Assembly: GCA_001771815.1 (NCBI GenBank)
Contig: MEPU01000010.1
Coordinates: forward strand, 1-64,000
Direction: 5' to 3'
Length of the DNA stretch: 64,000 nt
From: Bdellovibrionales bacterium RIFCSPHIGHO2_01_FULL_40_29
GTDB lineage: Bacteria > Bdellovibrionota > Bdellovibrionia > Bdellovibrionales > Bdellovibrionaceae
Shown here one piece after another: positions 2,253 to 31,303 of the stretch. Made by a program: the position numbers and the translations under genes. The number at the start of each line of letters is the position of its first letter. Positions within the stretch are counted from its first letter, which is position 1. The notes under the pieces are model-generated. The model saw only the letters and a list, made by a program, of their open reading frames with translations, did no database searches and was not told the origin of the DNA.

Positions 2253-2675
2253 TTATTTTATGGCTTTAAAAATTTTGCTCTGGCAAAAATTGGTTGCCCT
2301 TGCGACACACGCTTTGCGTTTTTCCGCCGTCAATTTGGGTGATGAATTGTGCTCAATGCCCGTCATTTTTTCAAGTGCATACTCGTATGTTTCACAAGTG
2401 CAATCCTGAGCACATGACTTTAAAAGTTGAGCCACTTCGGCTCTTTTATCCATCGGAGCACTAAGCTCTTGAACCCGTTGATCTATCAGCGCCTTTAAAT
2501 TTTGTGACGCCTGTGAAACTCCGGCCGCATCCAAACCACAGCTGGCTTTTTTATGCGCCAGCAACTGATCCATAGCAAAAACCAAGGCATTTGAAGCGCG
2601 ACCAAGCTCTTGCAATCTCCAAGTCTGAGCCGATACCGGCAATGCGACTACCAGAATCAGAAACAAGAGGCCCAT
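2253..2675 (-). CDS. Small secreted Cys-containing protein
   Basis: A 140-residue protein starting at MGLLFLILVVALPVSA, a clear signal peptide cleaved near residue 17. An upstream in-frame extension would overlap the deacetylase and lacks a signal, so I chose the internal ATG, although its Shine-Dalgarno is weak. The mature part is helical with six cysteines, including CAQDCTC, suggesting periplasmic disulfides. It lies 19 bases downstream of the deacetylase and is probably co-transcribed with it. I do not recognise the family. Confidence 0.65.
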   Translation of the reverse strand: MGLLFLILVVALPVSAQTWRLQELGRASNALVFAMDQLLAHKKASCGLDAAGVSQASQNLKALIDQRVQELSAPMDKRAEVAQLLKSCAQDCTCETYEYALEKMTGIEHNSSPKLTAEKRKACVARATNFCQSKIFKAIK

Positions 2676-2694
2676 GATGCGATTATTGTTTTGA

Positions 2695-4167: not shown

Positions 4168-4391
4168 GGTATAAAACTCCTTCGCCTGTTTGGAATCTTT
4201 ATAATAGCAGACGGCCACCAAACTGACACAAGACGATGGTCTAATATTCTATCCTCCTTCTGCAGTTAAATGGATCTGAGTTCAAGCGAGTTAGTTGATA
4301 AGATTTTTTAACACTTAATTTTTTTCAATGTCGTAAATTTACTTTGCGCAACTATGGGTAATAAATATAGTTCTATTTATTCGGGGAATTG

Positions 4392-6215
4392 ATGAAAAAG
4401 AAACGTGGGATTGAAAATCTCTTAATTGACTGGAAACTCAAGCGCGCTTCGCGCGTGACTTATGTTCTGGCAAAATACGGTGTAATATTCTCTGCTTTTT
4501 CAACTGTGATTGATTTGTATTTTCAAGTCTCTCCGCTGGTCTTAACCGGCGATGGGGCTCTTTTGATGGGGACGGGCCTAGCTTTAAATAAATCACGCCA
4601 AGAAAAACCCATTTGGTGGCTTTGGATTCCACTGTATGCAGCTCTTTGGTATGCCATCACCACCAGCCTTCTTGAAACTGGCGGAATTCACAGCCCATTT
4701 ATCGGCAGTTACTTTTCTCTTCTTTTTGTCAGCGGACTTGTTCTTCAGGTTCAAGTTCGACCACTGATCATGGTGCTTTTTGTTTTTCTGAATCTAGTTT
4801 TTTGGTTTATGGCTGATTCCTGGAGCCTCAGTAGCTTTGGCAGCGAACCCCCTGTTTTATTCTCATTTCTCATCAATACACTGGTGATGGCAGCACTTAT
4901 GGTCTGCATCTCTGAATTTTTAAAAACTGAGCGCACCTTAGCTAAAGAAATACTTAATCGCTACCGCGATCTGGAAGTCGCTCGTAAGAATCTCAATCGT
5001 GAAGAAACTGCAAATGCCACCAAATCCACATTCCTAGCGAATATCAGTCATGAACTCAGAACTCCCTTGGGCGCCATCTTAGGATATGCTGATTTAACTC
5101 TGGACTCATCTACTCCTGATACTGAAAAATCAGATTATATAAAAACAATACGAAACAATGGCGCTCAGCTTTTGCATTTGGTAAATGATCTGTTGGATTT
5201 AACAAAAGTCGAAGCCGGAAAAATTGAACTCGAAGAAGTCGTCTTCAATCCACTTTTGGTGATTCAAGAGGTTGTTGATCTACTGACCCTGGACGCGCAA
5301 AAAAAAGGTCTCCCTATTTATTTGCATCTCGAGAAACAATTGCCAAGCCTCATCTGTACGGATCCCACTCGATTGCGTCAGATCATTACGAATGTGCTTG
5401 GTAACGCCGTCAAATTCAGTGAAGTCGGATCTATCGACGTGCGCGTGAACTGCTCTGAAAGAAAAAACACCAATGATATTTTAATGACCATTGAAGTTCA
5501 AGATTCTGGCCCCGGTCTGTCTGCAACTGAAAAAAGTAGGCTCTTTAAGCCTTTCAGTCAGGCTGATGCGTCTGTGACACGAAAGTTCGGAGGAACGGGT
5601 CTTGGTCTAAACCTTTCTCGCCAACTTGCACGCCTATTGGGAGGCGATCTTTATTTAGCATGGAGCCAACCTGGAGTTGGCAGTCGTTTTGTTTTTAATT
5701 TACCGCTGAGTCATGATTCTTTAGCAAAAACAAAATCAGAACTGATTCCCCCAGTTGAAATCCCAATCAAGCCTTATTCCTTCAACCAGGTATTTTCCAT
5801 CTTAGTGGTTGAAGATAATCCGGACAGTCAGTTTTTAATTACAAAATATTTAAAAAACAGCGGTGTCCGCGTGCAAGTTGCTCAGGATGGTTTAGAGGCA
5901 TTGCAAAAAGTTGCGCACACTCATTTTGATTTAATTTTTATGGATGTTCAGATGCCCATTATGGATGGAATCCAAGCCACCCAATTGCTACGTCAAAAAA
6001 AATTCACTGCGCCGATAATTGCCCTGACAGCTCATGCCATGAAAGATGATCGTGACCGTTGTTTAGCTGCAGGATTTGACGACTATTTAACAAAGCCTGT
6101 TGAACGAAGGCTCCTGTTGCAAAAGATGAGATCTCATTTGCAGTCTCAAAGTATAACAACCCATTTCGAACCCGCAGCAACCGTGATAGACTTGAGTCTA
6201 CATACCTCATTATAA
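4392..6215 (+). CDS. Hybrid sensor histidine kinase
   Basis: A 607-residue protein. Residues 25-175 hold about five membrane segments with no large periplasmic sensor. A short coiled linker leads to HisKA with NISHELRTP (H220), then a HATPase with N-box TNVLGNAVKF (about 333), DSGPG (371) and GGTGLGL (400-406). A C-terminal receiver has acidic VVEDN, phospho-acceptor D518 in FMDVQMP and K568 in LTKPV. Signals probably pass through the membrane part. The next gene is a single-domain receiver 11 bases downstream, so the two likely form one phosphorelay. The TTG just before the ATG is less likely as start. Confidence 0.92.
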   Translation: MKKKRGIENLLIDWKLKRASRVTYVLAKYGVIFSAFSTVIDLYFQVSPLVLTGDGALLMGTGLALNKSRQEKPIWWLWIPLYAALWYAITTSLLETGGIHSPFIGSYFSLLFVSGLVLQVQVRPLIMVLFVFLNLVFWFMADSWSLSSFGSEPPVLFSFLINTLVMAALMVCISEFLKTERTLAKEILNRYRDLEVARKNLNREETANATKSTFLANISHELRTPLGAILGYADLTLDSSTPDTEKSDYIKTIRNNGAQLLHLVNDLLDLTKVEAGKIELEEVVFNPLLVIQEVVDLLTLDAQKKGLPIYLHLEKQLPSLICTDPTRLRQIITNVLGNAVKFSEVGSIDVRVNCSERKNTNDILMTIEVQDSGPGLSATEKSRLFKPFSQADASVTRKFGGTGLGLNLSRQLARLLGGDLYLAWSQPGVGSRFVFNLPLSHDSLAKTKSELIPPVEIPIKPYSFNQVFSILVVEDNPDSQFLITKYLKNSGVRVQVAQDGLEALQKVAHTHFDLIFMDVQMPIMDGIQATQLLRQKKFTAPIIALTAHAMKDDRDRCLAAGFDDYLTKPVERRLLLQKMRSHLQSQSITTHFEPAATVIDLSLHTSL

Positions 6216-6226
6216 AAGGTGGCCAA

Positions 6227-6625
6227 ATGAAGAACATCATACTGATGGTCGACGACAATTTAGAAATGCGAAATTTATTCGCGGAGCTTCTTGAAAAGAC
6301 TCCCTTAAGGGTTGTTACATTCGCATCTGTCAAAGAAGCACAGATTCATCTTTTGTCTGAAAATAATCGCAATGATGTTCTGGCTATTGTTTCCGATCTC
6401 ATGATGGGTCCAACAGATGGCTTAGAATTTTTAGCTTATGTGAAAAAGAATAACGATCTGGAGCACATTGATTTTTTTCTGCTCACCGGAGCAGATATCA
6501 GTTTATATAAAAGCTATATCGAACCCTTTCCATTGACGGGCATTATTGAAAAGCCCTTCAGTCGAAAAGACATGATTGCCACGCTCACCGGCTTACTCGC
6601 CAACCAATTGCAAGCCACGACTTGA
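6227..6625 (+). CDS. Single-domain response regulator
   Basis: A 132-residue CheY-like receiver with acidic pair DD (9-10), phospho-acceptor D57 in VSDLMMG, Thr in LLTGA and Lys in EKPF. It has no output domain. AAGGTGG precedes the ATG, and the gene starts 11 bases after the hybrid kinase, so it is its probable partner and may act by protein-protein contact. Confidence 0.9.
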   Translation: MKNIILMVDDNLEMRNLFAELLEKTPLRVVTFASVKEAQIHLLSENNRNDVLAIVSDLMMGPTDGLEFLAYVKKNNDLEHIDFFLLTGADISLYKSYIEPFPLTGIIEKPFSRKDMIATLTGLLANQLQATT

Positions 6626-6686
6626 CATCAGCTTTTCAGATGCTAGGATTTTTTAAAGTCCATTAACGGCAACTGGAGCATGACTT

Positions 6687-7157
6687 ATGTTACAAAGTAT
6701 TTTTATTATTCTGACTCTTATTTCAATTCAAGGTTTTGCGGCAACTCGTCTGCAGTTTTTTTTCGGAGATCAGAATGCGATCGCTTTGCTCACGCCTACA
6801 GACAGTTACGGAAATTCTGATTCTGACTCTTCGGATCTTTATAAAATGATGAATGTTCCCGAACAAGACTCTATGCTCGGAAAAGGAAAATCGATTATGA
6901 GCTCCGCTCGTGATTTTAATTTGGTTTGTAGCCAGTACAAAGGGCAATGCCAAGTTGTTTTAGCAAAATCCGCAAATGTTCAAATTCGTTCTGCAAAAAA
7001 ATCTATGAGCTATTCTGTGTCCGGCGAATCGGCAACTCAATTAGTGAAGCTCTTTCAATTGAATGACCTGGGTGAGGTCAAATTCGAAGCGACGGATAGA
7101 CTTTTTCGCATTTATGGAAATGCAAAAGAATTTATCTTTGAAGCGGGTCAATACTGA
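6687..7157 (+). CDS. Secreted hypothetical protein
   Basis: A 156-residue protein with a signal peptide (MLQSIFIILTLISIQGFA). The mature part has two cysteines close together (CSQYKGQC), a Ser/Asp-rich stretch (NSDSDSSD) and is otherwise beta-rich. GGAG lies 8 bases before the ATG. It is convergent with kdpE. I do not recognise the family. Confidence 0.7.
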   Translation: MLQSIFIILTLISIQGFAATRLQFFFGDQNAIALLTPTDSYGNSDSDSSDLYKMMNVPEQDSMLGKGKSIMSSARDFNLVCSQYKGQCQVVLAKSANVQIRSAKKSMSYSVSGESATQLVKLFQLNDLGEVKFEATDRLFRIYGNAKEFIFEAGQY

Positions 7158-7164
7158 GTCCGCT

Positions 7165-7845
7165 TCAAACTATTCTATAACCTACACCCGGCTCCGTAAT
7201 AATATGGCGGGGTTCAGAGGGATTGACTTCAATTTTCTTTCGCAGTTGTTTAATATAAATTCTTAAATAATGAGATTCCTCTTGCGCCCCAGCTCCCCAA
7301 ATTTCTTTAAGCAACTGGATTTGAGGCACAACCTGCCCCGGATTACGAACAAGTCGAGCCAAAACTTCATACTCTGTATTTGTTAATCGTATAATCTGAT
7401 CTAAAACCGTGACCAATCTTTGACTAAGATCAACTCGAAGATCATCTGATTCAAAAATAGGAGTGGCTTCAACTAAACCATGATTTCTTAAACCTACACG
7501 GACACGAGCCAATAATTCCGAAGTCCCAAATGGCTTGGTCAGATAATCATCCGCTCCGGCATCAAGCAATCTGACTTTTGTGGCCTCATCATCTGAAACA
7601 GTTAACACAACAACAGGCACGGTCGTCCAAGTACGCAGTTCTTTTAAAACGTCATAACCATTCATATCTAAAAGACCAAGATCCAATATAATCAAATGAG
7701 GATGAAATTCTGAAGCCAGAAGCAAGCCCTCATGGCCGGAGGTGGCTTCAGCAATTTCATACTTTTGCGTTTTCAGATGAAGCTTTAATACATCTCGAAT
7801 CGCTTTTTCATCATCAATCACTAATATTCGTGGAGCTTGCTTCAT
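7165..7845 (-). CDS. kdpE: KdpE response regulator
   Basis: A 226-residue OmpR-class regulator: receiver with acidic DDE and phospho-acceptor D55 (ILDLGLLD), Lys in LTKPFG, and a C-terminal winged helix (NTEYEVLARLVRNPGQV ... YLRIYIKQLRKKIE). The ATG overlaps the kdpD stop by one base (TGATG), so translation is probably coupled. As last gene of kdpFABCDE it should activate the operon under potassium limitation, and a matching operator lies upstream of kdpF. Confidence 0.95.
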   Translation of the reverse strand: MKQAPRILVIDDEKAIRDVLKLHLKTQKYEIAEATSGHEGLLLASEFHPHLIILDLGLLDMNGYDVLKELRTWTTVPVVVLTVSDDEATKVRLLDAGADDYLTKPFGTSELLARVRVGLRNHGLVEATPIFESDDLRVDLSQRLVTVLDQIIRLTNTEYEVLARLVRNPGQVVPQIQLLKEIWGAGAQEESHYLRIYIKQLRKKIEVNPSEPRHIITEPGVGYRIV

Positions 7846-10535
7846 CAATGTCTTTCCTGCGGCAGTACCGGTGGATTCTTATACGGAAGTTCAATCATAA
7901 ATTTTGACCCCTGCGGCGTATTGGGCTCGTACCAGATTCGACCTTTATGAAGTTCGACAATTCCTTGAACAATCGAAAGCCCTAAGCCTGTCCCACCCGC
8001 TGGTGTTCCAGGAACACGAAAAAATTTATCAAAAAGAAGTGGAACAAATTCTTCTGGAACTCCGACTCCATTATCGATGACTGAAATAAGAACTTTCTGA
8101 TTTTTTAATTCCGCCTTGATCACGATATTTGAACGAGGACCTGCGTACTGAATAGAATTAAGAACAATATTTGAAAGCGCGTGTTCAAAAAGTCTAAAAT
8201 CAATTTCAATCAATCCGATATCTTCCGCAATAAATGAACTCATTTTTTGTTCGCCAACATTTTTCTCTAACTTTTTCAAAACAACACCAATCAAATCACT
8301 GAGATCATGCCATTCCAGCTTCAATCCTAAAACTCCGGAATTAAGACGGCTCATATCTAAAAGATTCTCAATCACGCGGTTCAGTCTTTCGCCAGCATCG
8401 GCCAGGCTTTCGGCGATCCCGGCAATCTCTTGACTCTTTGCGGAGTGGCTTTCCAGGGCCGAGACTGATCCTAAAATGGCAGTCAATGGCGTTCTCATTT
8501 CGTGCGAAATTGAATTAAGCAGCGTTTGATGTAGCATTTCAGAATCTTTCAAGCGCTGAGACTCCGCAAGTCTTCGGCTTAAAAAATGCCTTTCGATAGA
8601 AATCCCTAACTGAGTTGTGATTGAATTCAATAAATTCTGCTGATCGATACTTAATTTTTTAAGTTTTTTCTCGGGCCTAAATAGAAAAACTCCCACAATT
8701 TCGCTGACACCTTGAAGTGGAATATACAGGGAACGGGCTTGCCCCAGGGTATCTGTCGACCACCCCGCAGGCTTTTGATTCTGAAAACTCCAAATGGCTA
8801 CGGCTTGCTCTTTTTCATCCAGATCAAATTGGACTAAATCAATTCTGTCAAACTGCAGAGCACCTTCTTTTGATTTTAAAATAACAATGGCTCGCCCTTT
8901 TAAAATATCAGAAACCCGCTCCGTTACTTTTTTAATGAATTCGGTTTTATTCTGGCTATTTGAAATATCTTGAAGAACCAGATTCAAAACATTTGTTTTT
9001 TCTTCGCGCTCGCGAATTAAATTTTCATGAACACGAATACGATTGGTTAAAAATCCCGTAATAATTGCCACGACGAAATAAGAAATACACAAAATAACAT
9101 CATCTGGTTGAGAAATAACAAACGTGAACCGTGGCGGAATAAATCCAAAATTCCAGACAACTGCACTCAGTGTCGCAGTAAAGAGCACAGCCCCCATACT
9201 TCCGGAAAGACCCGCAATAATCACAGCCAGTAAAAAAATAAAACCCACCGCCCGATATCCAATAAGTGGTTCAAATAAAGCACCCAAAAGACTTACAAAA
9301 ATCAAATACCAAAATGAGTAGTAATACTTCATCCATCCGCTTTGAGTTCGATAAAGAGACACCTCATCCGCGAAAGAAGCAGTCGCTTGTTCGGGCTTAT
9401 CTTGACGAATCACATGAATATCGACCTCTAGACTCTCTTTCACAAGTCTGTCTAAAAGAGATCCCCCTTCAATAACATTTCTAAACCATCTTCGGCTGGG
9501 ACGTCCGACCACAACTTGTGTCACATTTTTCTGACGACAGATACGCTTCAGAGCAGAAGCCAGATCCGCATCCGCCGTCGTGATCACTTCAGCATTTAAC
9601 TCTCGCGCCAGATTCAAATTCTTAATCAGTTGAGCTTGATCCTCTTCATTCAATGTAATTCCAGTATCCACATGAACAGCGATCCAAGGGGCTTCTAAAT
9701 TATAGGCCAACCTTCGAGTTGCGCGGATGATTTTTTCTGAATAGGGGCTATGGGATACGGCCACCAAAAGTCGCTCATTCGTTTGCCATGGACTTTCATC
9801 ACGAGTGACAGAAAATTTTTGCAAGTCCTGATCGACTCTTTCGGCCGTCATTCTCAGAGCAATTTCCCGCAAGGCCGTTAATTTATCCTCTTTAAAAAAA
9901 TTCTGAGTCGCGGCTTCTGCCTTCTCCCCCAGATAGACTTTGCCTTCTTTTAATCTTTTCAAAAGTTCCGAGGGAGCAATATCGACCAGTTCGACAAGAT
10001 GAGTTTTCTCAAGGAGGCTATCTGGAACAGATTCACGAATCGAAATCCCTGTAATAGCTTCAACACTTTCTTTGCGACTCTCAAAATGTTGAATATTTAA
10101 AGCCGTATAAACATCGATCCCCGCATCTAATAGTTCGAGAACATCTTGATACCTTTTAGGATGCCGAGAACCCGGTCCATTGGTGTGAGCCAGCTCATCC
10201 ACAACAACAACTTGTGGTTTACGTTGCAGAATCGCATCCAGATCCATTTCTTCGATTTCTGTTTTTCGATAATGCAACTTTTTTCGAGGAATAACTTCTA
10301 AACCAGTAACCAGCGCTGCTGTTTCAACACGACCATGTGTTTCCACAACACCAATTACAATATCAGCTCCTTCATTCTTTTTTTGATGAGCCGCTTTCAG
10401 CATGGCAAAAGTTTTACCAACCCCTGCAGACATTCCTAGAAAAAGACGCAGCTTTCCCTTTGATGTGGCTCTGTCGTCATCATCAATGATTTTGAGTAAA
10501 GCATCTGGATCTAGTCTGCGTTCATTAGAATTCAA
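7845..10535 (-). CDS. kdpD: KdpD potassium sensor kinase
   Basis: An 896-residue protein of normal KdpD length and domain order. The N-terminal KdpD domain has Walker A GMSAGVGKT (about 34-42) and VVVDELAHTNGPGSRHPKRY (110-129). Then come a universal-stress-like domain (255-380), four membrane helices (405-497), a GAF-like region (520-645), HisKA with SISHEMRTP (H678) and a HATPase with DNGVGVP and GGTGLGLSI. It senses potassium availability and phosphorylates KdpE. All key motifs are present. Confidence 0.96.
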   Translation of the reverse strand: MNSNERRLDPDALLKIIDDDDRATSKGKLRLFLGMSAGVGKTFAMLKAAHQKKNEGADIVIGVVETHGRVETAALVTGLEVIPRKKLHYRKTEIEEMDLDAILQRKPQVVVVDELAHTNGPGSRHPKRYQDVLELLDAGIDVYTALNIQHFESRKESVEAITGISIRESVPDSLLEKTHLVELVDIAPSELLKRLKEGKVYLGEKAEAATQNFFKEDKLTALREIALRMTAERVDQDLQKFSVTRDESPWQTNERLLVAVSHSPYSEKIIRATRRLAYNLEAPWIAVHVDTGITLNEEDQAQLIKNLNLARELNAEVITTADADLASALKRICRQKNVTQVVVGRPSRRWFRNVIEGGSLLDRLVKESLEVDIHVIRQDKPEQATASFADEVSLYRTQSGWMKYYYSFWYLIFVSLLGALFEPLIGYRAVGFIFLLAVIIAGLSGSMGAVLFTATLSAVVWNFGFIPPRFTFVISQPDDVILCISYFVVAIITGFLTNRIRVHENLIREREEKTNVLNLVLQDISNSQNKTEFIKKVTERVSDILKGRAIVILKSKEGALQFDRIDLVQFDLDEKEQAVAIWSFQNQKPAGWSTDTLGQARSLYIPLQGVSEIVGVFLFRPEKKLKKLSIDQQNLLNSITTQLGISIERHFLSRRLAESQRLKDSEMLHQTLLNSISHEMRTPLTAILGSVSALESHSAKSQEIAGIAESLADAGERLNRVIENLLDMSRLNSGVLGLKLEWHDLSDLIGVVLKKLEKNVGEQKMSSFIAEDIGLIEIDFRLFEHALSNIVLNSIQYAGPRSNIVIKAELKNQKVLISVIDNGVGVPEEFVPLLFDKFFRVPGTPAGGTGLGLSIVQGIVELHKGRIWYEPNTPQGSKFMIELPYKNPPVLPQERH

Positions 10536-10558
10536 ATCGAACTCCGATCAATTTCTAT

Positions 10559-11116
10559 TTATAAAGCTAAATGATCTAATGCTAAATTCAGCTTCAGTAC
10601 ATTCACCCGTGGTTCACCAAAAATACCAAACTGTCGTGGTTCCGTCAGTTCATTGATAAGATGGCGCAGGGTGGTGTCCGCCAGATCTCGAACTTTTGCA
10701 ATTCGTTGGATTTGATATAACGCAGCCTCGGGACTAATATGCGGATCCAAACCGCTTGCCGAAGCAAATACAAGATCCTGTGGAGGCAACTCGGGATGAT
10801 CCAGAATTTTATTCTTTTGGATTCTCTCGCTCACCTGTTTTTTAAGATCAGCACTCATTTGTCCCAAATTTGACCCTCCTGATAAAAGCGGATTGTGATT
10901 CACCGCTGACGGTCGAGACCAAAAATACTTGGGATCTTCAAAGTTCTGTGAAATCAATATAGATCCAACCATGTGACCACCTCTAGAAATAAACTGACCT
11001 TGCGCTTGGTCTTTAAAAAAAGCACCACTCAGACCTGTTACAAACGCAGGATATACAATTCCTGTTACTACACTTAAGATCACAAACATTTTCAGACCAA
11101 TAAATAATTGTTTCAT
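10559..11116 (-). CDS. kdpC: KdpC subunit of K+-transporting ATPase
   Basis: A 185-residue protein of typical KdpC size: one N-terminal membrane helix (LKMFVILSVVTGIVYPAFVTG) and a periplasmic domain with the family motifs YFWSRPSAV and ASGLDPHISPEAA. KdpC stabilises the KdpFABC complex and assists ATP use by KdpB. It follows kdpB by 9 bases. Confidence 0.96.
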   Translation of the reverse strand: MKQLFIGLKMFVILSVVTGIVYPAFVTGLSGAFFKDQAQGQFISRGGHMVGSILISQNFEDPKYFWSRPSAVNHNPLLSGGSNLGQMSADLKKQVSERIQKNKILDHPELPPQDLVFASASGLDPHISPEAALYQIQRIAKVRDLADTTLRHLINELTEPRQFGIFGEPRVNVLKLNLALDHLAL

Positions 11117-11125
11117 AACATCCTC

Positions 11126-13219
11126 TTAAATAAGTCCGATACGATTAATAATAAGATCAATGATTTTTATACCTACAAATGGAATGATTAATCCACCGAA
11201 GCCGTAAATAAATAAATTTCTTTGCAATATTTTTGAAGCCTCTAAAGCTTGATATTGAACTCCTTTAAGAGCCAATGGAATCAAAGCCACGATGACAAGT
11301 GCATTAAATATCACAGCGCTCAGTATCGCACTTTGAGGACTTTCAAGACCCATGATATTCAATTCTCCCAAAGGACCTTGGGACTGCCCCTGGATGATAT
11401 ACAATGTTCCAAATAAGGCCGGAAGAATTGCAAAATACTTTGCGATATCATTCGCAATACTAAATGTGGTCAAACTTCCACGAGTCATCAAAAGCTGTTT
11501 TCCAATTTCAACAATTTCAATCAGCTTTGTTGGATTCGAATCCAGATCCACCATATTACCAGCTTCACGAGCCGCCTGCGTTCCTGTATTCATGGCGACC
11601 CCCACATCAGCTTGCGCCAAGGCCGGAGCATCATTTGTTCCATCACCAGTCATGGCAACAAGATGTCCCCGAGATTGCTCTTCACGAATTCTTTTCAACT
11701 TTGCCTCAGGTGTTGCTTGCGACATAAAATCATCCACACCGGCTTCCGCAGCAATGGCTGCTGCCGTCAATGGATTATCACCTGTAATCATAACCGTTCT
11801 AATTCCCATTTTTCGAAGTTCAGCAAACCGATCTTTGATCCCACCTTTAACGACGTCTTTAAGTTGAATCACTCCCAGAATGTCTCCATTATCTATAACC
11901 ACAAGTGGCGTCCCACCTGCTTTGGCGACTTGCTCAACAAGACCATCAAGATCTGGAGGAATTTTAAATCCGGATTCTTTAGCAAAGTCTTTTATAGAAT
12001 CAGACGCCCCTTTTCGAATTTGTCTGTCTTTGCCATTTTGATCTTTAAAGTTCACGCCACTCATACGTGTCTGCGCAGCAAATGGGATAAATTCGGCATT
12101 TTGGGGCGTCAGTGTTTCTGCGCGAAGTTCAAATTTTTCTTTCGCAAGAACAACAATCGATCGCCCTTCCGCTGTGCTATCCGCCATAGATGACAACTGT
12201 GCGGATTCGGCCAATCGCTCAACACGCACACCAGACACCGCTAAAAAAGAAGAGGCCATTCGATTTCCAAGAGTGATTGTGCCTGTTTTATCTAACAACA
12301 GCACATCGATATCTCCGGCGGCTTCGACAGCCCGACCGCTGGTCGCAATCACGTTTCTTCGAATCAGACGATCCATCCCGCTGATACCAATGGCACTTAA
12401 TAGTCCACCGATTGTGGTTGGAATCAAACAAACTAATAAAGCCACCAATACAGGAACCGTCATGATTTCATCCAAATTTTGTCCCGTGACTTGACTGGCA
12501 TAATCAGCAAAAGGCTTCAATGTCATCACACCCAGAACAAAAACGATCGTCAGTCCAGATAAAATAATACTCAGTGCTATTTCATTGGGAGTTTTTTGTC
12601 GTTGAGCCCCTTCAACTAAAGAGATCATGCGATCCAGAAAACTATTTCCCGCTTCGGCAGTAATGACGATCTCGATGCGATCACTTAATACTTTAGTTCC
12701 ACCCGTCACAGCACTTCGGTCACCACCACTTTCTCTGATGACAGGAGCGGATTCTCCGGTGATTGCGGACTCATCGACACTGGCAATACCATCGATCACT
12801 TCACCATCTCCGGGAATAAGATCACCCGCTTCGCAAATGACGACATCATGTTTTCTGAGATCTGACGCCGAAACAGTGGTTTCAATTCCATCTTTAAGTA
12901 AACGAGCTTTGGTGGTCGTTCTTGTTTTTTTTAGTTCTTCAGCTTGTGCTTTACCTCGCCCTTCAGCAATGGCTTCAGCAAAATTAGCAAACAGCACCGT
13001 AAACCAAAGCCACACCGTAATTTGTATTTCAAAGGATTGTGACGAGCTCTTTCCAAAAAGCACAATCAGCAACGTCAACAATGCTCCGATTTCGGTCACA
13101 AACATGACCGGATTCTTAGCCTGAATCCTAGGATCTAATTTATAAAAAGATTCTTTCAATGCCGGAAATAAAATTTTCGGATTGAGCCACTGTTTTTCTT
13201 GTTTTTTTGATAATTCCAT
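11126..13219 (-). CDS. kdpB: KdpB ATPase subunit
   Basis: A 697-residue P-type ATPase catalytic subunit. Visible motifs are TGES (154-157), phosphorylation loop DKTGTIT with D310, [10 protein letters not shown] and [10 protein letters not shown] in the nucleotide and P domains, and membrane helices flanking [10 protein letters not shown]. It hydrolyses ATP to drive K+ uptake with KdpA. It sits 15 bases downstream of kdpA with operon spacing. Open frames on the plus strand across it are shadows. Confidence 0.97.
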
Positions 13220-25331: not shown

Positions 25332-25349
25332 GAAATTTGGAGCGGGAGA
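25332..25349. repeat. att core, left copy
   Basis: Exact 18-bp copy of the 3' end of tRNA-Gly plus its flank. It marks the left junction of the element. Confidence 0.88.
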
Positions 25350-25384
25350 TTCCGCTCGTGTAATTTCAATAACTTATCATATGG

Positions 25385-25402
25385 TGGCAGGGGTTGGCAG
25401 GG
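25385..25402. repeat. Paired TGGCAGGG motifs, left
   Basis: Two TGGCAGGG copies (25385-25392 and 25395-25402) in direct orientation, 35 bp inside the left att core. The same pair occurs at 31062-31080 near the other end. Direct motif pairs near both ends are typical of tyrosine-integrase arm-type sites. Confidence 0.6.
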
Positions 25403-25412
25403 ATTTTAGGGT

Positions 25413-26561
25413 TTACCTCGCTTTGTTCATCGAGATCACCTTTCCCTCTTTATTTTGTGGTACGTTGATTTTCAATCCATCAGTTTGGCCTTTCATATTA
25501 ATGCCTGCTGATCTGAAATACTCATCCGTCGTACTTAGTTTGGCGTGTCCGACGTTTTCTTTGACGATTCCTAGGGGGACACCATCAATTAAAGCTAACG
25601 TTATATGTGTAGCTCTTAATTGGTGATGTGTAATTTCCTTAATACCAATTTCTTGGCAAAATTCTCTTAAGACCCGAGCTTGATGTCCATCTTTCCAGCG
25701 ACTACAATCGACATCAATGACAAATTCTGATTTCGATTTTAGCTTCAGTTCTTTAAAAACCGGGACTATGTAGTTTGGAATTGCGACAACTCGCTCTTCT
25801 TTGTCTTTAAGAAATAGGACAATTCCTTCTTTAGGAATTAATTGTCTTCGAAGGTAAATAAGCCCTTGTTCAAAATCTATATCAAGCCATTTTAAACCAG
25901 CTAATTCACTTCTTCTAAGACCCAACGTCACTGTCAGTAGCCAAATATAATAGTAATTGTGACCACGCCTTTGTGCTTCACCTAGAAGAAGATCCACCTC
26001 TTCGTGAGTTAAGGCTTCTTTTCTTTTTTTAGGAACTTTTCGCATTTTAATTCCTGAAAATAAATTGTGTTTTAAACAGCCTGTATGTACAGCGTAAGTA
26101 AATACACATTTTATTTCTTTCAAAATATGAAAAGTCATGGATCGACTTAGACCTTTTAACTCCATCTCATCCAATTTATTATTTACAAATTGAGGCGTGA
26201 GTAAGTCTAAGTGAATCGTATCCCAATGTCGAACATAGGCTAGACGGCTTTTTTTAGATTTTACAACTTGAGGACTGTAGCCATTTGGATTTTCATTTGA
26301 TCTGACTTTTAAATGAAGTTGTTCAAGATAAGAATCTAATAATGGCCCCCAGTGAGTAAATCCTAAACCATCGGGTCTTTCTTCTCGACACGCACTCCAA
26401 AGCTCTCTGTAGACAGTTTCAGCTTTGGGTTTAGACTGAATACCTCTGCGTTTCTTTTGATGTCTTTTTCCAGTGTATTTATTGATGGCTTCAACCACCA
26501 CCATATAAAAAACTTTTTCGACACCGGCGTTAAGTTTCTTTTTATAAGCGATTATTCCCAT
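25413..26561 (-). CDS. Tyrosine recombinase (integrase)
   Basis: A 382-residue phage-type integrase. Residues 65-170 form a SAM-like core-binding domain. The catalytic domain keeps the full set: Arg in LGLRRSEL (R216), HQLR (H313, R316), GHAKLS (H339) and the nucleophile in TTDEYF (Y348). The first 60 residues may be the arm-binding domain. The ATG overlaps the stop of the upstream excisionase-like gene by one base (TAATG), so they are co-translated. It should integrate the element at the adjacent tRNA-Gly att site. It looks intact. Confidence 0.95.
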   Translation of the reverse strand: MGIIAYKKKLNAGVEKVFYMVVVEAINKYTGKRHQKKRRGIQSKPKAETVYRELWSACREERPDGLGFTHWGPLLDSYLEQLHLKVRSNENPNGYSPQVVKSKKSRLAYVRHWDTIHLDLLTPQFVNNKLDEMELKGLSRSMTFHILKEIKCVFTYAVHTGCLKHNLFSGIKMRKVPKKRKEALTHEEVDLLLGEAQRRGHNYYYIWLLTVTLGLRRSELAGLKWLDIDFEQGLIYLRRQLIPKEGIVLFLKDKEERVVAIPNYIVPVFKELKLKSKSEFVIDVDCSRWKDGHQARVLREFCQEIGIKEITHHQLRATHITLALIDGVPLGIVKENVGHAKLSTTDEYFRSAGINMKGQTDGLKINVPQNKEGKVISMNKAR

Positions 26562-26776
26562 TACGACCCCCTTTGAAAGAGTGAGTCGAGTTCAGTTTTT
26601 TTAAATCGCAAACTTTTACTCAAAAGCTTGTACGCCTTAACTTTGCCTTGATAGACCCACTTCCTCAGTTGTTTAGGGGTGGTTCTAAGGTATTCAGCGG
26701 CCTCTTCTGTATTTAACCATATGTAATTTTCAAAGAACTTTTTCTTGTTAGAGCTATGGATTTTTAATCCAGACAT
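26561..26776 (-). CDS. Excisionase-like HTH protein
   Basis: A 71-residue protein; the ATG at 26776 has AGGAG upstream, and the longer frame from 26824 is less likely. It carries an HTH_17/MerR-like winged helix (WLNTEEAAEYLRTTPKQLRK, WVYQGKVKAYKLLSKSLRFK). Proteins of this kind next to an integrase usually act as recombination directionality factors or as activators of int. Confidence 0.85.
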   Translation of the reverse strand: MSGLKIHSSNKKKFFENYIWLNTEEAAEYLRTTPKQLRKWVYQGKVKAYKLLSKSLRFKKTELDSLFQRGS

Positions 26777-26879
26777 GATTGTACTCCTGAATCTTGTTCC
26801 CAGCAAGGCTGAGAACGATGGCATATAACGTCAGGAATTCGCGCAAGTGATTTATATTCTTTTTAAATCAAACATTCAA

Positions 26880-26906
26880 TTATCCACAATTTTATGATGT
26901 GAATAA
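26880..26906. promoter_or_regulatory. Two opposed DnaA-box-like sites
   Basis: TTATCCACA (26880-26888) and, inverted, TGTGAATAA (26898-26906, reading TTATTCACA on the minus strand) both fit the DnaA box TTATNCACA and are separated by 9 bases. A strongly AT-rich tract follows to about 27055. Together they resemble part of a replication origin, though an operator or recombination site is also possible. Confidence 0.5.
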
Positions 26907-27056
26907 TTCGATCGTACGTTTTGAAATCATCAAATGAACAACATCTGATTTGGGTTTCTGAGTTTTCTTTATTGTTTTTCTAGAATCTCATGTTTTATTT
27001 TCTCTCTTTGTTTATTTTAATTTCATTCCTAATTTTTATTCCTTTTCTTACATATG

Positions 27057-27155
27057 CCCCCGCCGGTACTGTCTAGTCCTAGTTACTGACCACCTTCAAT
27101 CGTAGAGTGGGGGTGGTCAGTAACGGCACAAGGACTCCGACTGAAGCGGCGGGGG
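27057..27155. other. Large composite hairpin, unknown role
   Basis: Nested perfect stems: 9 bp CCCCCGCCG/CGGCGGGGG (27057-27065, 27147-27155), 6 bp AGTCCT/AGGACT (27075-27080, 27131-27136) and 12 bp TTACTGACCACC/GGTGGTCAGTAA (27083-27094, 27112-27123) with a 17-base loop. Its GC-rich base contrasts with AT-rich surroundings. It could be a structured RNA ending at the terminator at 27210, a single-strand or transfer origin, or a recombination site. No protein is encoded. Confidence 0.75.
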
Positions 27156-27209
27156 TGTTTACTTAAGTCATTCTCGATCTTTAGTAGTTTAATCATACTT
27201 ATCTAAATC

Positions 27210-27253
27210 AAAAATAAGTGAGTCATCGAATCGATAACGACTCACTTATTTTT
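27210..27253. terminator. 15-bp terminator-like hairpin
   Basis: A perfect 15-bp inverted repeat (27210-27224 and 27239-27253) with A-run and T-run ends and a 14-base loop. It would terminate transcription in both directions. On the plus strand it lies 55 bases after the composite hairpin, so it could close a transcript of roughly 200 bases. Confidence 0.75.
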
Positions 27254-27429
27254 CATTCTGAATCTGGTTTTTTCATGTATTTTGATGTTTCAGTGTCATT
27301 CATTTTTTTCCCTTTGGCTTTTGTAGTTTTTAAAAAGCAAGGCATGCCAGTAAAATGCGTTTTTTGATTTATGTTATTGAAATTAATTTTGAATTTCTAA
27401 ATTCTAGCCCACTTTCCTTAAATCAAATG

Positions 27430-27535
27430 ATTCAGAAATACTGAATGTTTAGAATTTTATATTGAACTTATTGCTGTATTTTTAATGGTTTAGACCACAT
27501 TCAGTATTTCTGAATAAGATGCAGTATTTCTGAAT
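27430..27535. repeat. Three palindromic operator/iteron repeats
   Basis: ATTCAGAAATACTGAAT (27430-27446), its reverse complement ATTCAGTATTTCTGAAT (27499-27515), and TGCAGTATTTCTGAAT (27520-27535) with one arm changed. The last two are 20 bp apart, two helical turns. They precede the cargo gene at 27706 and may bind the element's double-HTH regulator or act as replication iterons. Confidence 0.7.
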
Positions 27536-27611
27536 GAGGTCAGGTTTGGGAAAATTAGACTTGGATATGAGTATCGATCAACATGGCTTGTATCTATCGA
27601 AAGGGCTCGCG

Positions 27612-27629
27612 GCTACCAGATGTAATATA
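27612..27629 (+). repeat. Upstream repeat of cargo gene 1
   Basis: GCTACCAGATGTAATATA matches 28177-28194 in 17 of 18 bases. Both copies lie upstream of a secreted cargo gene (77 and 114 bases) and include TAATATA, a possible -10 box, so they may be a duplicated promoter. Confidence 0.5.
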
Positions 27630-27705
27630 CTTTTTATTCGATTTAGGATTTGTCTGGATTTTCAATTTTAAATATTATAAAAAGGCTCAACCATTGGAGA
27701 TATTT

Positions 27706-28122
27706 ATGAATGTCATCTCAATATTTTTTCTAGTGTTTCTTGCAATACCAAATTTGAGCTTTGCTACGACAATTATTTGCTCGAGCGAAACAGGTGCTTT
27801 GAAAACTGATTTAATCTTCTCTTTCGAGAAACAGCACTTGGAAGTAAGTGGGGCCTTTAGTGGTATGCCCCTTAAGTCCTTTGTGTTTTTAAGTGACGCA
27901 ATGGCTTGTGGTAAACCCATTGCGTCTGTTTCAGAGTGCACGAAAAGCGAAATTAAAGATTTAACAAAGTCCGGAGAATATGACTTTCAATTTTCTTGCG
28001 CAGATGATCGACGTGGTGAACTTCACTTTGAGAACGATTCTGTTATGGCATACTGTTATAATAGTGATGGATCACTCAGTAATCAAAAAGGCAGCGATGG
28101 CTGCAAAATCGATTTTAAATAG
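27706..28122 (+). CDS. Secreted cargo protein 1
   Basis: A 138-residue protein starting at ATG 27706 (GGAG upstream); a longer frame from 27583 lacks a ribosome site and would hide the signal peptide (VISIFFLVFLAIPNLSFA). The mature part is beta-rich with six cysteines (IICSS, MACG, SECTK, SCADD, YCYN, GCK), suggesting disulfide bonding. Unknown family. It lies behind the triple operator repeats and shares an upstream repeat with the next gene. Confidence 0.7.
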   Translation: MNVISIFFLVFLAIPNLSFATTIICSSETGALKTDLIFSFEKQHLEVSGAFSGMPLKSFVFLSDAMACGKPIASVSECTKSEIKDLTKSGEYDFQFSCADDRRGELHFENDSVMAYCYNSDGSLSNQKGSDGCKIDFK

Positions 28123-28176
28123 TCCAACCCCCTTCATTAAAATAAATATCAAATCAATCGCCCCAAAAAGCTTTTT

Positions 28177-28194
28177 GCTGCCAGATGTAATATA
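28177..28194 (+). repeat. Upstream repeat of cargo gene 2
   Basis: Second copy of the 18-base GCTxCCAGATGTAATATA motif, 114 bases before the gene at 28308. It probably drives that gene separately from cargo gene 1. Confidence 0.5.
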
Positions 28195-28307
28195 TTCGCG
28201 AATAGGTCTGAGTTTGTTTGAGTAAAAACTTCACGACTGTCAGAAATATAACTGATGAAATTACAACGAAAGTTTGTTATTTAGTGATATCTATTTAAGG
28301 AGTTCAA

Positions 28308-29570
28308 ATGAAGCAATGGCTAAAATTTTCTTTTTTTACTCTAACTATGCATTTCTTAAGCGCTGGCGTGTTGCAGGCGGCTCCTATTTTGGTAGATTCA
28401 GTAACTATTAAATCATCAATATTTACTGGAGCTACCGTTTTGCCAACTCACAATGGATCTCAGTATTTTCGTTTTGATGAGGGGTATTCTAATACAACCA
28501 ATTTTGTCTTTTTAGATAAAGACAATTTATCAACGCAACCATACAAGGTGAGCATTAATTCAAGTAAACCTGCAATAATTAATCTAATTGATTCGCCATC
28601 AGGTCGTTATGCAATTATTCAAAAAGCACCTTCAGCTCAAACACTTAATAAGTTTGAACTTATTGATGCAAAAAGCAAAACGAAGGAAGAAATTGATTTA
28701 ACGAAGATACCTACATTTATTGAGCCAAGTATTTCAAATGTGCGATTTAGTCATGATGAAAAGCAGGTCGCTATTTTTTGTGGAGACGCCATCGTTATCT
28801 TAGATCTTGTTACAAAGATAGCCACAAAGCTTGAATCAATTCCAGAGGCATCTAGCATTTCACAACAATATATTGGCAGCGATGGTAGCAATTTCTACTG
28901 CAAATATTCTGTTTTAAAAGCTTGTCCAAATTATGATTTCAGATTTTCGTTGGATGGTAAAATAATTGAACTTATTGGTGGCTTGACAATGGGAGAAGGC
29001 CGCGAAGGAGTAGCTTATTTTTCGTGGGATCTAACATCTAAAAAGAAATTAGATTTTCATCTCGTTAAAGAGGGTACTATTTTCAATGAGTTTCAAGCGA
29101 AATTTGTTGCTGATAAAACGGTTCTGATTAAAATGCTTAATGATTCAAAAAGCAAAATCATCGATATTACTTCTGGAAAGGAAACTCTAACTGCTAAGAA
29201 TATTTTGTTTTTCCAATTTTCAAATAGGCTTTTAGTAGATGATGGGATCACCTTTAAATCATTAGATGCGTCCTCATTACAAACGATTTTTTCAACAGAA
29301 ATTTCGTCGTTGAAATTACAACAGTACTCAGTATTGTTAGCCACCCAGGATGGATTGGTATCATTTCAAGACTTAAGTTGGCAAAAACTAGCAAAAGGAC
29401 TTTTTAAGGATCTTTCGTTTTATGAACTGGTAAATTCCAGTTTAGTTAAAAGTACTTCTACAGGTAGCTACTTGACGCTCTATTTTTCTCGTTTTGACAC
29501 AAATGAATATGTAAGTGCCGATCAAAATATTTCAACAGGCGAAATAAGTTTGAAGTTTTACAAATTCTAG
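28308..29570 (+). CDS. Secreted cargo protein 2, propeller-like
   Basis: A 420-residue protein with AAGGAG upstream and a signal peptide (FFTLTMHFLSAGVLQAA). It contains repeated four-strand units of the type SNVRFSHDEKQVAIFCGDAI, VILDLVTKIA and YDFRFSLDGKIIELIGG, like TolB or WD40-type beta-propellers, but no clear family motif. It may bind a partner at the cell surface. A terminator follows at 29612. Confidence 0.65.
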   Translation: MKQWLKFSFFTLTMHFLSAGVLQAAPILVDSVTIKSSIFTGATVLPTHNGSQYFRFDEGYSNTTNFVFLDKDNLSTQPYKVSINSSKPAIINLIDSPSGRYAIIQKAPSAQTLNKFELIDAKSKTKEEIDLTKIPTFIEPSISNVRFSHDEKQVAIFCGDAIVILDLVTKIATKLESIPEASSISQQYIGSDGSNFYCKYSVLKACPNYDFRFSLDGKIIELIGGLTMGEGREGVAYFSWDLTSKKKLDFHLVKEGTIFNEFQAKFVADKTVLIKMLNDSKSKIIDITSGKETLTAKNILFFQFSNRLLVDDGITFKSLDASSLQTIFSTEISSLKLQQYSVLLATQDGLVSFQDLSWQKLAKGLFKDLSFYELVNSSLVKSTSTGSYLTLYFSRFDTNEYVSADQNISTGEISLKFYKF

Positions 29571-29611
29571 ACTGTATAAAAGCACTTCATTAAAAAAAAT
29601 TAAAATTAGTC

Positions 29612-29643
29612 GAAGCCATCCAAACTGTGTGGCTTCTTTTTTT
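29612..29643 (+). terminator. Intrinsic terminator of cargo gene 2
   Basis: A 7-bp stem GAAGCCA/TGGCTTC with an 11-base loop is followed by a run of seven T, 41 bases after the stop of the propeller-like gene. Confidence 0.85.
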
Positions 29644-29742
29644 GTTCCCTATATATATTTTTTACTAATCGAGCTAATGAAAACGACTTTTGCGAAATAA
29701 AAAATATCCTGTTCCGAAGAATACGATGGATGCAATATAAAA

Positions 29743-30174
29743 TTAATTAGAAGCGCCAGCAGCCTTTAAAAGTTTCAGGACTGTTTGTCGAACAGAATTA
29801 TCCTGAATTGCATTTGCACATTTCAATGCAGTCATACGTGCAAAGCGACTTTCGCAATTAATCTGGTTTGCAGCTCCACTTTTTAATAATATAGAAACTA
29901 ATTCAGCTCTTTTGTTATAAACTGAATGGCAAGAGGCGAAAATAAGTGGGGTTACAAACTCATTTTTATATGAAGTGCTCTCAGGACATGAATTAATTAA
30001 TTTTGGATTAATTTGCAGCTTTTGCTCGACAATTTCTATATTTCCATTCCAAAGCGCTACAAAAAACTCATCATCTGTGCAGGTACTACTACTAACGACA
30101 TTTTGAAATTGGCACTCTTCAGCAGAAGCGCTAAATGAGAACAATAAGGACACAGTCATCAATAAAATTTTCAT
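29743..30174 (-). CDS. Secreted ankyrin-like cargo protein 3
   Basis: A 143-residue protein with AAGGGAG upstream and a signal peptide (LLMTVSLLFSFSASA). The mature part has ankyrin-like helix-loop repeats: DDEFFVALWNGNIEIVEQKL, VTPLIFASCHS, RAELVSILLKSGAAN and MTALKCANAI ... TVLKLLKAAGA. Cysteines near the start (CQFQ, CTDD) may pair. A secreted protein-binding role is inferred. Confidence 0.65.
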   Translation of the reverse strand: MKILLMTVSLLFSFSASAEECQFQNVVSSSTCTDDEFFVALWNGNIEIVEQKLQINPKLINSCPESTSYKNEFVTPLIFASCHSVYNKRAELVSILLKSGAANQINCESRFARMTALKCANAIQDNSVRQTVLKLLKAAGASN

Positions 30175-30334
30175 AAAACTCCCTTTTATTTGATATTAAC
30201 AAACTTGATTTTTTTATCAAAACTGACGTTCATTTGCACTTCAAATTAATCTTAAATCATGTTTGTCCTATACTGAAATGACCCACGGTCCTATTTAATG
30301 TGCATTTTGCTATCTTAAGTGATCGGGCGTAGTT

Positions 30335-30949
30335 TTACCGAACCCCAGTCTTGTCTCTTTGGTTTGTAAAACAAGATTCTAAATCTTTAGTATTCTGCAA
30401 AAGCTCTTGCGCAAAATAGAAAATTTTCTCAATTTGGTTTTCATTAAGAGCTTTTAAAGCAATGGCTAGCTTGTAGCTATACGGAACAACCCTTGATCGG
30501 ACAGGATCAGAACTCAGGTTTTTAAAACTGGTGGGGCTATATCCATAAGCCACCATGATCTGATTCCGAAGATCATGGGTGACTGGGTTTATACCGTTTT
30601 CTATTTTTGAAAGCTGTGCTGAAGAAATTTTTGTAAGCTTGCTTGCATTTTCTAAGCTCAAGTTTTTTTTAATACGAATGAATTTTAGAACAGCGCCATC
30701 AAAGGTGTTATTGATTCGCTGTTTGTTTTTAAAATTTGCAACCCACGTTTTAAATAAAGGTACAAACTGAGTTCCATGAAGAATTTTAATGATTCTTTGG
30801 AACTCAGTTTCTGAAACTCTAGAACGGCCTTTGCCGTTTTCTATCTCGCTTAGCCAGCCCTTGCTGCGTCCAATTTGTTGGGCTGCTTGTTGAACACTCA
30901 GGCCACTTAATTGACGTAAGTGCCTGATGATGACTCCGTAGTTGTCCAT
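30335..30949 (-). CDS. Regulator with two XRE HTH domains
   Basis: A 204-residue protein with AGGAGG upstream. It has two XRE helix-turn-helix motifs: LSVQQAAQQIGRSKGWLSEI (about 17-36) and LSLENASKLTKISSAQLSKI (about 98-117). The C-terminal 60 residues are helical (ALKALNENQIEKIFYFAQEL). Two DNA-binding units in one chain suggest binding of spaced or different sites. It is the only regulator in the element besides the excisionase-like protein and probably controls its operators, including one just upstream of itself. Confidence 0.85.
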   Translation of the reverse strand: MDNYGVIIRHLRQLSGLSVQQAAQQIGRSKGWLSEIENGKGRSRVSETEFQRIIKILHGTQFVPLFKTWVANFKNKQRINNTFDGAVLKFIRIKKNLSLENASKLTKISSAQLSKIENGINPVTHDLRNQIMVAYGYSPTSFKNLSSDPVRSRVVPYSYKLAIALKALNENQIEKIFYFAQELLQNTKDLESCFTNQRDKTGVR

Positions 30950-31008
30950 AAGGACCTCCTCTTCTCGAATGAAATTTAATTTTTAAATTTGAACTTTGGA
31001 AAATTTGT

Positions 31009-31035
31009 CTGAAGTTCAAAAAAGTTGAACTTCAG
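31009..31035. promoter_or_regulatory. Perfect palindrome upstream of double-HTH gene
   Basis: An 11-bp perfect inverted repeat CTGAAGTTCAA/TTGAACTTCAG with a 5-base spacer, 60 bp upstream of the regulator start. A half-site (TTTGAACTTTGG) lies nearer the gene. It is followed at 31036-31050 by a TATTTCTGA sequence like the repeats at 27430-27535. Autoregulation is likely. Confidence 0.7.
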
Positions 31036-31061
31036 GAAATATTTCTGAGAAGAGGCCGCTG

Positions 31062-31080
31062 TGGCAGGGTTTTGGCAGGG
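31062..31080. repeat. Paired TGGCAGGG motifs, right
   Basis: Two direct copies of TGGCAGGG (31062-31069 and 31073-31080), mirroring the pair at 25385-25402. Candidate integrase arm sites about 150 bp inside the right att core. Confidence 0.6.
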
Positions 31081-31145
31081 AAAATGAGTCATCTAGAAGG
31101 ATCTAGAGGGGTTTGCAATTTTTTTCTGAATCTCGAATTTGAGTG

Positions 31146-31178
31146 ATTTTAAGTAGTTAGAACTGTTGATTTTTCTGT
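31146..31178. repeat. tRNA-downstream repeat, copy 2
   Basis: Blocks at 31146-31163 and 31166-31178 match 31-48 (17 of 18) and 60-72 (13 of 13). This lies inside the right end of the integrative element, downstream of tRNA-Gly. Confidence 0.5.
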
Positions 31179-31221
31179 TGCGGAACCAATGAACCGCCCC
31201 AAAATCCACTTTGATAAGTTG

Positions 31222-31239
31222 GAAATTTGGAGCGGGAGA
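31222..31239. repeat. att core, right copy
   Basis: Exact 18-bp match to 25332-25349. Bases 31228-31239 belong to the 3' end of the functional tRNA-Gly, so integration keeps the tRNA intact. Confidence 0.88.
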
Positions 31240-31303
31240 CGGGACTCAAACCCGCGACCTATGCCTTGGCAAGGCATCGCTCTATCAACTGAGCTACTCC
31301 CGC
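31228..31303 (-). tRNA. tRNA-Gly (GCC)
   Basis: A complete 76-base cloverleaf on the minus strand with encoded CCA (31228-31230). The acceptor stem GCGGGAG pairs with CTCCCGC, and the anticodon loop carries GCC. It is the integration target of the adjacent element. Confidence 0.97.

Follow-up and report, generated by a model that had tools for sequence, protein, structure and literature searches.

The window, the 64,000-nucleotide stretch of DNA analyzed here, contains a 5.9-kb integrated element (25332 to 31239) whose two ends carry the same 18-bp sequence, a repeat of the tRNA-Gly 3′ end. The left attachment repeat (25332-25349, GAAATTTGGAGCGGGAGA) is an exact copy of that end, and the right one (31222-31239) overlaps the 3′ end of the tRNA-Gly gene itself (31228-31303, minus strand). 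Next to the left repeat lie, both on the minus strand, a tyrosine recombinase or integrase (25413 to 26561; PF00589, E = 2.3e-19) and an excisionase-like HTH_17 protein, Xis (26561 to 26776; PF12728, E = 3.7e-12), whose start was set at 26776 and not at 26824 on the basis of homology with the ICE protein (MSGSQIQSSNEQKFF) in locus L059. On the other side of a noncoding region are three cargo genes, encoding a putative secreted protein (27703 to 28122, plus strand, with a longer frame from 27583), a 420-amino-acid protein with a signal-like start (28308 to 29570, plus strand), neither with an assigned family, and a small protein that also has a signal-like start (29743 to 30174, minus strand). 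None of the three has a Pfam match, and their starts resemble those of secreted proteins. A Cro/CI-type HTH regulator with two HTH repeats (30335 to 30949, minus strand) completes the element. As the preliminary description of this DNA had noted, neither a Rep nor a relaxase gene occurs among the element's open reading frames, and T4SS genes are missing from them as well; the integrase and both attachment repeats that define an oriT-only integrative mobilizable element are present. The tRNA-Gly gene is kept across the genus, with flanks too diverged for a clean vacant-site comparison. Homologues of the HTH regulator adjoin tRNA-Gly in genomes G047 and G048 too (L276 and L277), so that this tRNA may be a shared integration hotspot.

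The noncoding region between Xis and the cargo has a GC content of 33%, against 41% across the window, and the signals that the preliminary description had seen stacked there are all present in their places. Two exact DnaA-box-like sites, TTATCCACA (26880-26888, plus strand) and TTATTCACA (26898-26906, minus strand), face each other 9 bp apart; TTATNCACA occurs 4 times in the window, with 2.7 expected. A composite hairpin (27057 to 27155, plus strand) is built from nested arms at 27057-27065/27147-27155 (CCCCCGCCG/CGGCGGGGG, 9 bp), 27075-27080/27131-27136 (AGTCCT/AGGACT, 6 bp), and 27082-27094/27112-27124 (GTTACTGACCACC/GGTGGTCAGTAAC). The earlier count of 9, 6, and 12 bp of perfect stem holds for the first two, whereas the third arm pair is 13 bp long. 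The predicted folding energy of this hairpin is −63.6 kcal/mol, compared with −36.3 ± 3.3 in shuffled sequences (z = −8.4; 0 of 200 shuffles). It is followed by a second inverted repeat, IR2 (27206 to 27257), containing a 15-bp stem, AAAAATAAGTGAGTC/GACTCACTTATTTTT, at 27210-27253, and by three operator-like palindromes, ATTCAGTATTTCTGAAT, within 27430 to 27535 (at 27430, 27499, and 27519; one copy has one mismatch). Their core, TTCAGN5CTGAA, begins at 27431, 27500, and 27520.

When 144 genomes of the class were searched at the DNA level, the 221-bp unit of hairpin and IR2 was recovered from three elements in other genera (83 to 84% identity) and a 185-bp part of it from a fourth genome (84% identity), and there were many weaker matches to the inner stem; 18 neighborhoods of such hairpin matches were retrieved for comparison. 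The stems are conserved in these related elements, a comparison that the preliminary description had proposed. Among relatives, the inner stem TTCCTGACCACC..GGTGGTCAGGAA hardly changes, while the outer arms vary in sequence and stay complementary, pairing at 97.7% with their own partners versus 68% when arms are swapped between elements. At least two Watson-Crick types occur at 15 of the 17 pair positions of the outer stem, and in an alignment built from sequence alone, 18 pairs are changed on both sides, compared with 8.2 in shuffles (0 of 500). The outer stem of the window hairpin is interrupted, and this hairpin carries TTACTGACC where the majority of relatives have TTCCTGACC. Inverted repeats are also enriched 40 to 80 bp past the hairpin, with frequencies of 0.19 and 0.30 in two 20-bp bins over 80 sites, versus 0.03 and 0.02 in shuffled sequences.

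The hairpin, IR2, and the palindrome array of the window have counterparts of about 80% identity in complete ICEs of sister genera. These ICEs encode, in order, VirB2/TrbC, VirB4, a VirB8-like protein, VirB9/CagX, VirB10/TrbI, VirD4/TraG, a lipoprotein, and a protein of 254 to 272 amino acids. The hairpin comes next, and beyond it lie genes for a small protein, for an HTH protein, and for an integrase of the tyrosine or serine type. The small protein appears ribbon-helix-helix-like (RHH-like), an assignment read off the alignment alone. In searches of 369 genomes of the phylum, a covariance model built on the hairpin matched 125 genomes and a profile of the 254- to 272-residue protein matched 166. 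Among the matches listed, 65 of 129 hairpin sites lie within 312 bp of a gene for this protein, and in every one of these pairs the hairpin is situated 3′ of the gene (65/65) and in the opposite orientation (65/65). Of 40 hairpins without a listed partner that were inspected with up to 5 kb of flank, 38 lie near an integrase, VirD4, or a diverged relaxase, and L153, L159, L166, and L177 show the Int-Xis-hairpin order of the window. The suggestion that the hairpin is a transfer origin is supported by its conservation beside a relaxase and a T4SS operon. An integron attC site or a transposon end, considered from the hairpin itself, was abandoned when this synteny emerged.

MOB_C is, to our knowledge, among the least characterized families of relaxases. 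No canonical relaxase was found among the ICE open reading frames scanned. The core group of the 254- to 272-residue protein has no direct match in Pfam, and a sequence search of the PDB with the family gave no real match. An alignment of the family shows invariant HD, PD, ExE, K, and RY positions, in the pattern of PD-(D/E)XK nucleases, to which MOB_C relaxases are related (PMC12857230). In the AlphaFold2 model (pLDDT 90.6), residues 1 to 76 are predicted to form a MarR-like winged helix (best Z score, 8.8; RMSD of 1.9 over 64 residues), and the C-terminal half has weak fold matches to the PD-(D/E)XK proteins YaeQ, EcoO109I, and XisH; with Foldseek, all matches of the whole model have E > 0.01, and the N-terminal winged helix alone is firm. 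TraX of pAD1, the prototype of MOB_C, is likewise built with a winged HTH at its N terminus; its binding site is a set of five direct repeats located 70 to 120 bp from nic (PMC12857230). Comparison of the family with a PF13814 (Replic_Relax) set by hhalign gave 99.8% and an E value of 4e-29, the family profile matches an open reading frame at 18 of the 20 loci retrieved for PF13814, and the hairpin also adjoins genes that score above the PF13814 cutoff, such as those in L188, L189, and L194. The putative ICE relaxase is linked to a characterized MOB_C protein at the profile level, by direct comparison of A4 with the pAM373 protein (79% probability, E = 1.6e-5). The helper ICE protein, which is absent from the window, therefore combines an N-terminal winged helix and a PD-(D/E)XK core with homology to PF13814 and to known MOB_C proteins, the features by which a MOB_C relaxase is recognized.

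The hairpin, too, resembles those of MOB_C plasmids. The enterococcal plasmid pAM373 was chosen as yardstick for this family; it is typed MOBC in PLSDB, and its "replication-relaxation" gene passes the PF13814 cutoff (the CloDF13 record shows no intact mobC). Close to the relaxase of pAM373 is a pair of perfect 25-bp inner arms that contain TTCCTGACCA/TGGTCAGGAA; perfect outer arms of 18 bp enclose them, and five direct repeats of 12 bp come next. By strict count, 7 of the 8 plasmids inspected, pAM373 included, have a TCCTGACC/GGTCAGGA stem near the relaxase (conservatively, 6 of 7): five from Enterococcus (pAM373 and L294 to L297), one from Alkalihalophilus (L298), and one from Cytobacillus (L299). 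The Rothia plasmid (L300) has nested arms and lacks the TCCTGACC motif, and outer arms of at least 11 bp were not found in the Enterococcus mundtii and Cytobacillus plasmids. In the window the TGACC/GGTCA motif of MOB_C sits in the inner stem of the hairpin, within outer arms, as TTACTGACCACC, and in complete elements this structure lies close to a gene for a PF13814-type relaxase, as is typical of a MOB_C oriT. The region thus matches the oriT hairpins of MOB_C, and the earlier view that it belongs to no known family no longer holds. The window shares with pAD1 and pAM373 a nested hairpin with a TCCTGACC/GGTCAGGA inner stem, found near a winged-helix, PF13814-type relaxase (PMC12857230), and a separate repeat cluster that adjoins the hairpin. 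It differs from them in its outer arms and in having an inverted repeat in place of the five 12-bp direct repeats. Moreover, the hairpin is at the 3′ end of the relaxase gene in the Bdellovibrionota ICEs but beyond the 5′ end in pAM373, and the window element is integrated and has no relaxase in cis, whereas pAD1 and pAM373 are plasmids. A scan of 84,980 species genomes with the exact motif TTCCTGACCAN{20,50}TGGTCAGGAA found 64 loci, against about 7 estimated by chance, with at least 27 of them in Bdellovibrionota/Oligoflexia. Outside these groups, a relaxase-profile match lies 0 to 567 bp from the motif at four Enterococcus loci, in Halobacillus, and in three metagenome-assembled genomes (MAGs; one gammaproteobacterial, one from Anaerolineae, and one unclassified). 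Several other motif loci have no gene that matches the profile, and chance is the likely origin of at least some of these.

How the window element is related to the ICEs can be read from its alignment with L059, the ICE of genome G035, which served as reference. Positions 26688 to 26927, from the start of Xis to the 3′ end of the RHH-like gene, are 82% identical to L059:1355-1593; positions 26946 to 27266, with the hairpin and IR2, are 80% identical to L059:1906-2226; and positions 27325 to 27445 are 78% identical to L059:12900-13020, where a control region lies at the distal end of the tra operon. In the ICE, the second and third blocks are separated by the relaxase and the tra operon, both absent from the window. 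What the window therefore keeps is the start of Xis, the oriT, IR2, and this distal control region; it has none of the tra operon, no relaxase, and lacks the greater part of the RHH-like gene. By this comparison the window element is an internal-deletion derivative of an ICE, in which integrase, Xis, oriT, IR2, and operators were kept. Its integrase is only about 32% identical to that of the L059 type, which indicates that the integrase was exchanged. Two genomes besides that of the window carry such derivatives. In G033, blocks 98% identical to the G035 ICE run from the integrase to just past IR2 and then continue in the cargo, with ICE positions 2270-12727 (the tra/relaxase block) missing and the hairpin and IR2 kept. 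The third derivative, in G061, is shorter and has nearly the same left breakpoint. IR2 is retained in all three, and the preservation of oriT and IR2 in elements that lost the machinery is what mobilization in trans predicts. The palindromes are spaced by 69 and 20 bp in the window and in L059 and by 68 to 69 and 20 bp in L061, L062, and L078, and in intact ICEs the array stands upstream of the tra operon. What had been described as iterons is therefore an operator-like array, which is probably the leftover control region of the lost tra operon and may now drive expression of the cargo.

A genome-wide search for three kinds of genes found no PF13814 gene, no VirD4-type coupling protein (PF02534), and no gene of the A1 family in the genome of the window. 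Without a PF13814 relaxase and a coupling protein of this type the element has no means of self-transfer by this route and requires a helper, in agreement with the helper dependence suggested in the preliminary description. No helper ICE is present in the genome of the window; hitchers without a helper in the same genome are common (PMC11389934). Very probably, the region is a MOB_C-type oriT that serves as the cis-acting transfer module of an oriT-only integrative mobilizable element. This element is related by deletion to a MOB_C-type ICE and most likely relies for its spread on machinery borrowed from related conjugative elements. Int and Xis would excise the 5.9-kb element from tRNA-Gly, and the MOB_C relaxase of a co-resident or incoming ICE would bind near IR2, which by analogy with the repeats of pAD1 is a candidate binding site, distant from nic, for the relaxase or an accessory protein. 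The helper relaxase would then nick one strand, presumably within the inner stem of the hairpin, which contains TGACC, or beside it, the VirD4/VirB channel of the helper would pass the nicked strand to the recipient, and Int would reinsert it there at tRNA-Gly.

The same structures have been read in other ways. The hairpin and the second stem could form a single transcript of about 200 nucleotides that ends in a terminator, for example like the sgm-sRNA of SGI1, a small RNA known to serve in mobilization (PMC9299015). This would agree with the conservation and covariation of the structure and with a bias of wobble pairs to the plus strand (10 G-T versus 3 A-C in the outer stem, with an invariant TT/GG in the core). 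However, the region has no Rfam family, with nothing found at the gathering threshold and sub-threshold matches only in a permissive search. No promoter-like site was seen upstream of the hairpin on the plus strand and no terminator was called there, the T-run after IR2 is not regular among relatives, and in the ICEs IR2 and the relaxase gene overlap at the 3′ end of the latter. MOB_C plasmids, moreover, bear similar perfect nested arms in their DNA at the relaxase. The RNA proposed in the preliminary description appears very unlikely. It is still harder to credit that the region is a recombination or regulatory site of the integrase/Xis module, such as a site controlling Int expression or an accessory site for excision: in many small elements the hairpin is 0.9 to 2.1 kb from the integrase, but the same hairpin type occurs with unrelated tyrosine and serine integrases, follows the relaxase gene, and is found near the relaxase in MOB_C plasmids. 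Nor is there much to recommend a vegetative replication origin of a circular form, as first proposed from the two opposed DnaA boxes, the low GC and AT-rich tract, and the "iterons," given that there is no Rep gene, that the palindromes taken for iterons lie upstream of the tra operon in the ICEs, and that the box pair (26880-26906, between Xis and the hairpin) is not conserved: in 13 relatives, the 350-bp stretch upstream of the hairpin contains no DnaA box.

As a mobilizable element with a MOB_C-type oriT, the window element joins a class of which other members have been described. It shares with the iOriT elements, the "hitchers" defined in PMC11389934, an oriT close to those of conjugative elements and the lack of a relaxase and a T4SS, and the same features are reported for staphylococcal plasmids that mimic the oriT of conjugative elements (PMC8136818). 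It differs from both in that its helper family consists of Bdellovibrionota ICEs with a PD-(D/E)XK relaxase and in that it arose by internal deletion and not by acquisition of a foreign oriT. SGI1 is likewise integrative and moved by a helper, and its GC-rich oriT consists of inverted repeats (PMC6414798), but it has its own atypical, tyrosine recombinase-like relaxase MpsA, MpsB, and an sRNA, whereas the window element has no such mobilization genes. What is new is a family of Bdellovibrionota ICEs with a structured oriT and with derivatives that keep only the oriT, MOB_C oriTs and oriT-only elements as such being already known; no account of such ICEs was found in the openly accessible literature, and one may exist elsewhere. 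Because the oriT of most conjugative elements is unknown, and such sequences are short and degenerate, relaxase-less hitchers are difficult to detect (PMC11389934). A structure-based model of the MOB_C oriT links plasmids of Enterococcus and Bacillaceae with Bdellovibrionota ICEs and their deletion derivatives, predatory genera included, and the hairpin model R1 together with the motif TCCTGACC..GGTCAGGA provides a search tool for both helpers and hitchers. A hairpin in which covarying outer arms enclose a core of near-invariant TGACC/GGTCA might even be a general signature of MOB_C oriTs in several phyla, read by the relaxase as a folded single strand and revealing a large population of relaxase-less satellites in Bdellovibrionota, a broader proposal that we hold tentatively and at somewhat less than an even chance. 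G033 and G035 offer a natural pair in which mobilization in trans can be studied, L061 (G033:C8) and L059+L081 (G035:C12) having the same metal-efflux-type cargo without and with the tra/relaxase block, respectively.

Several further loci are worth recording. In L062 (positions 265-885; G061:C78), an open reading frame fuses the N terminus of the RHH-like protein to the C terminus of the integrase, apparently through a deletion inside the derivative element. L149 (G047:C35:88686-102178), from the genus of the window, has three oriT-like hairpins within 6.2 kb (at 5014, 8401, and 11114), possibly marking tandem mobilizable elements. A Bdellovibrionota-type locus with Int, hairpin, relaxase, and VirD4 is found in L239 (CALQIT020000006.1), from a MAG labeled Streptomyces griseus, a label that looks wrong. 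Similar TTCCTGACCA hairpins with short palindromic inner loops occur in L237, L251, and L261 (Actinomycetota) and in L229 (an Aeromicrobium MAG), with no relaxase-profile match in the DNA retrieved for these four loci. Finally, the plasmids L296 (Enterococcus hirae), L297 (E. mundtii), and L300 (Rothia) are nonmobilizable by PLSDB typing and nonetheless bear a replication-relaxation-type gene, a TraM-recognition/T4SS DNA-binding protein, and a large hairpin.
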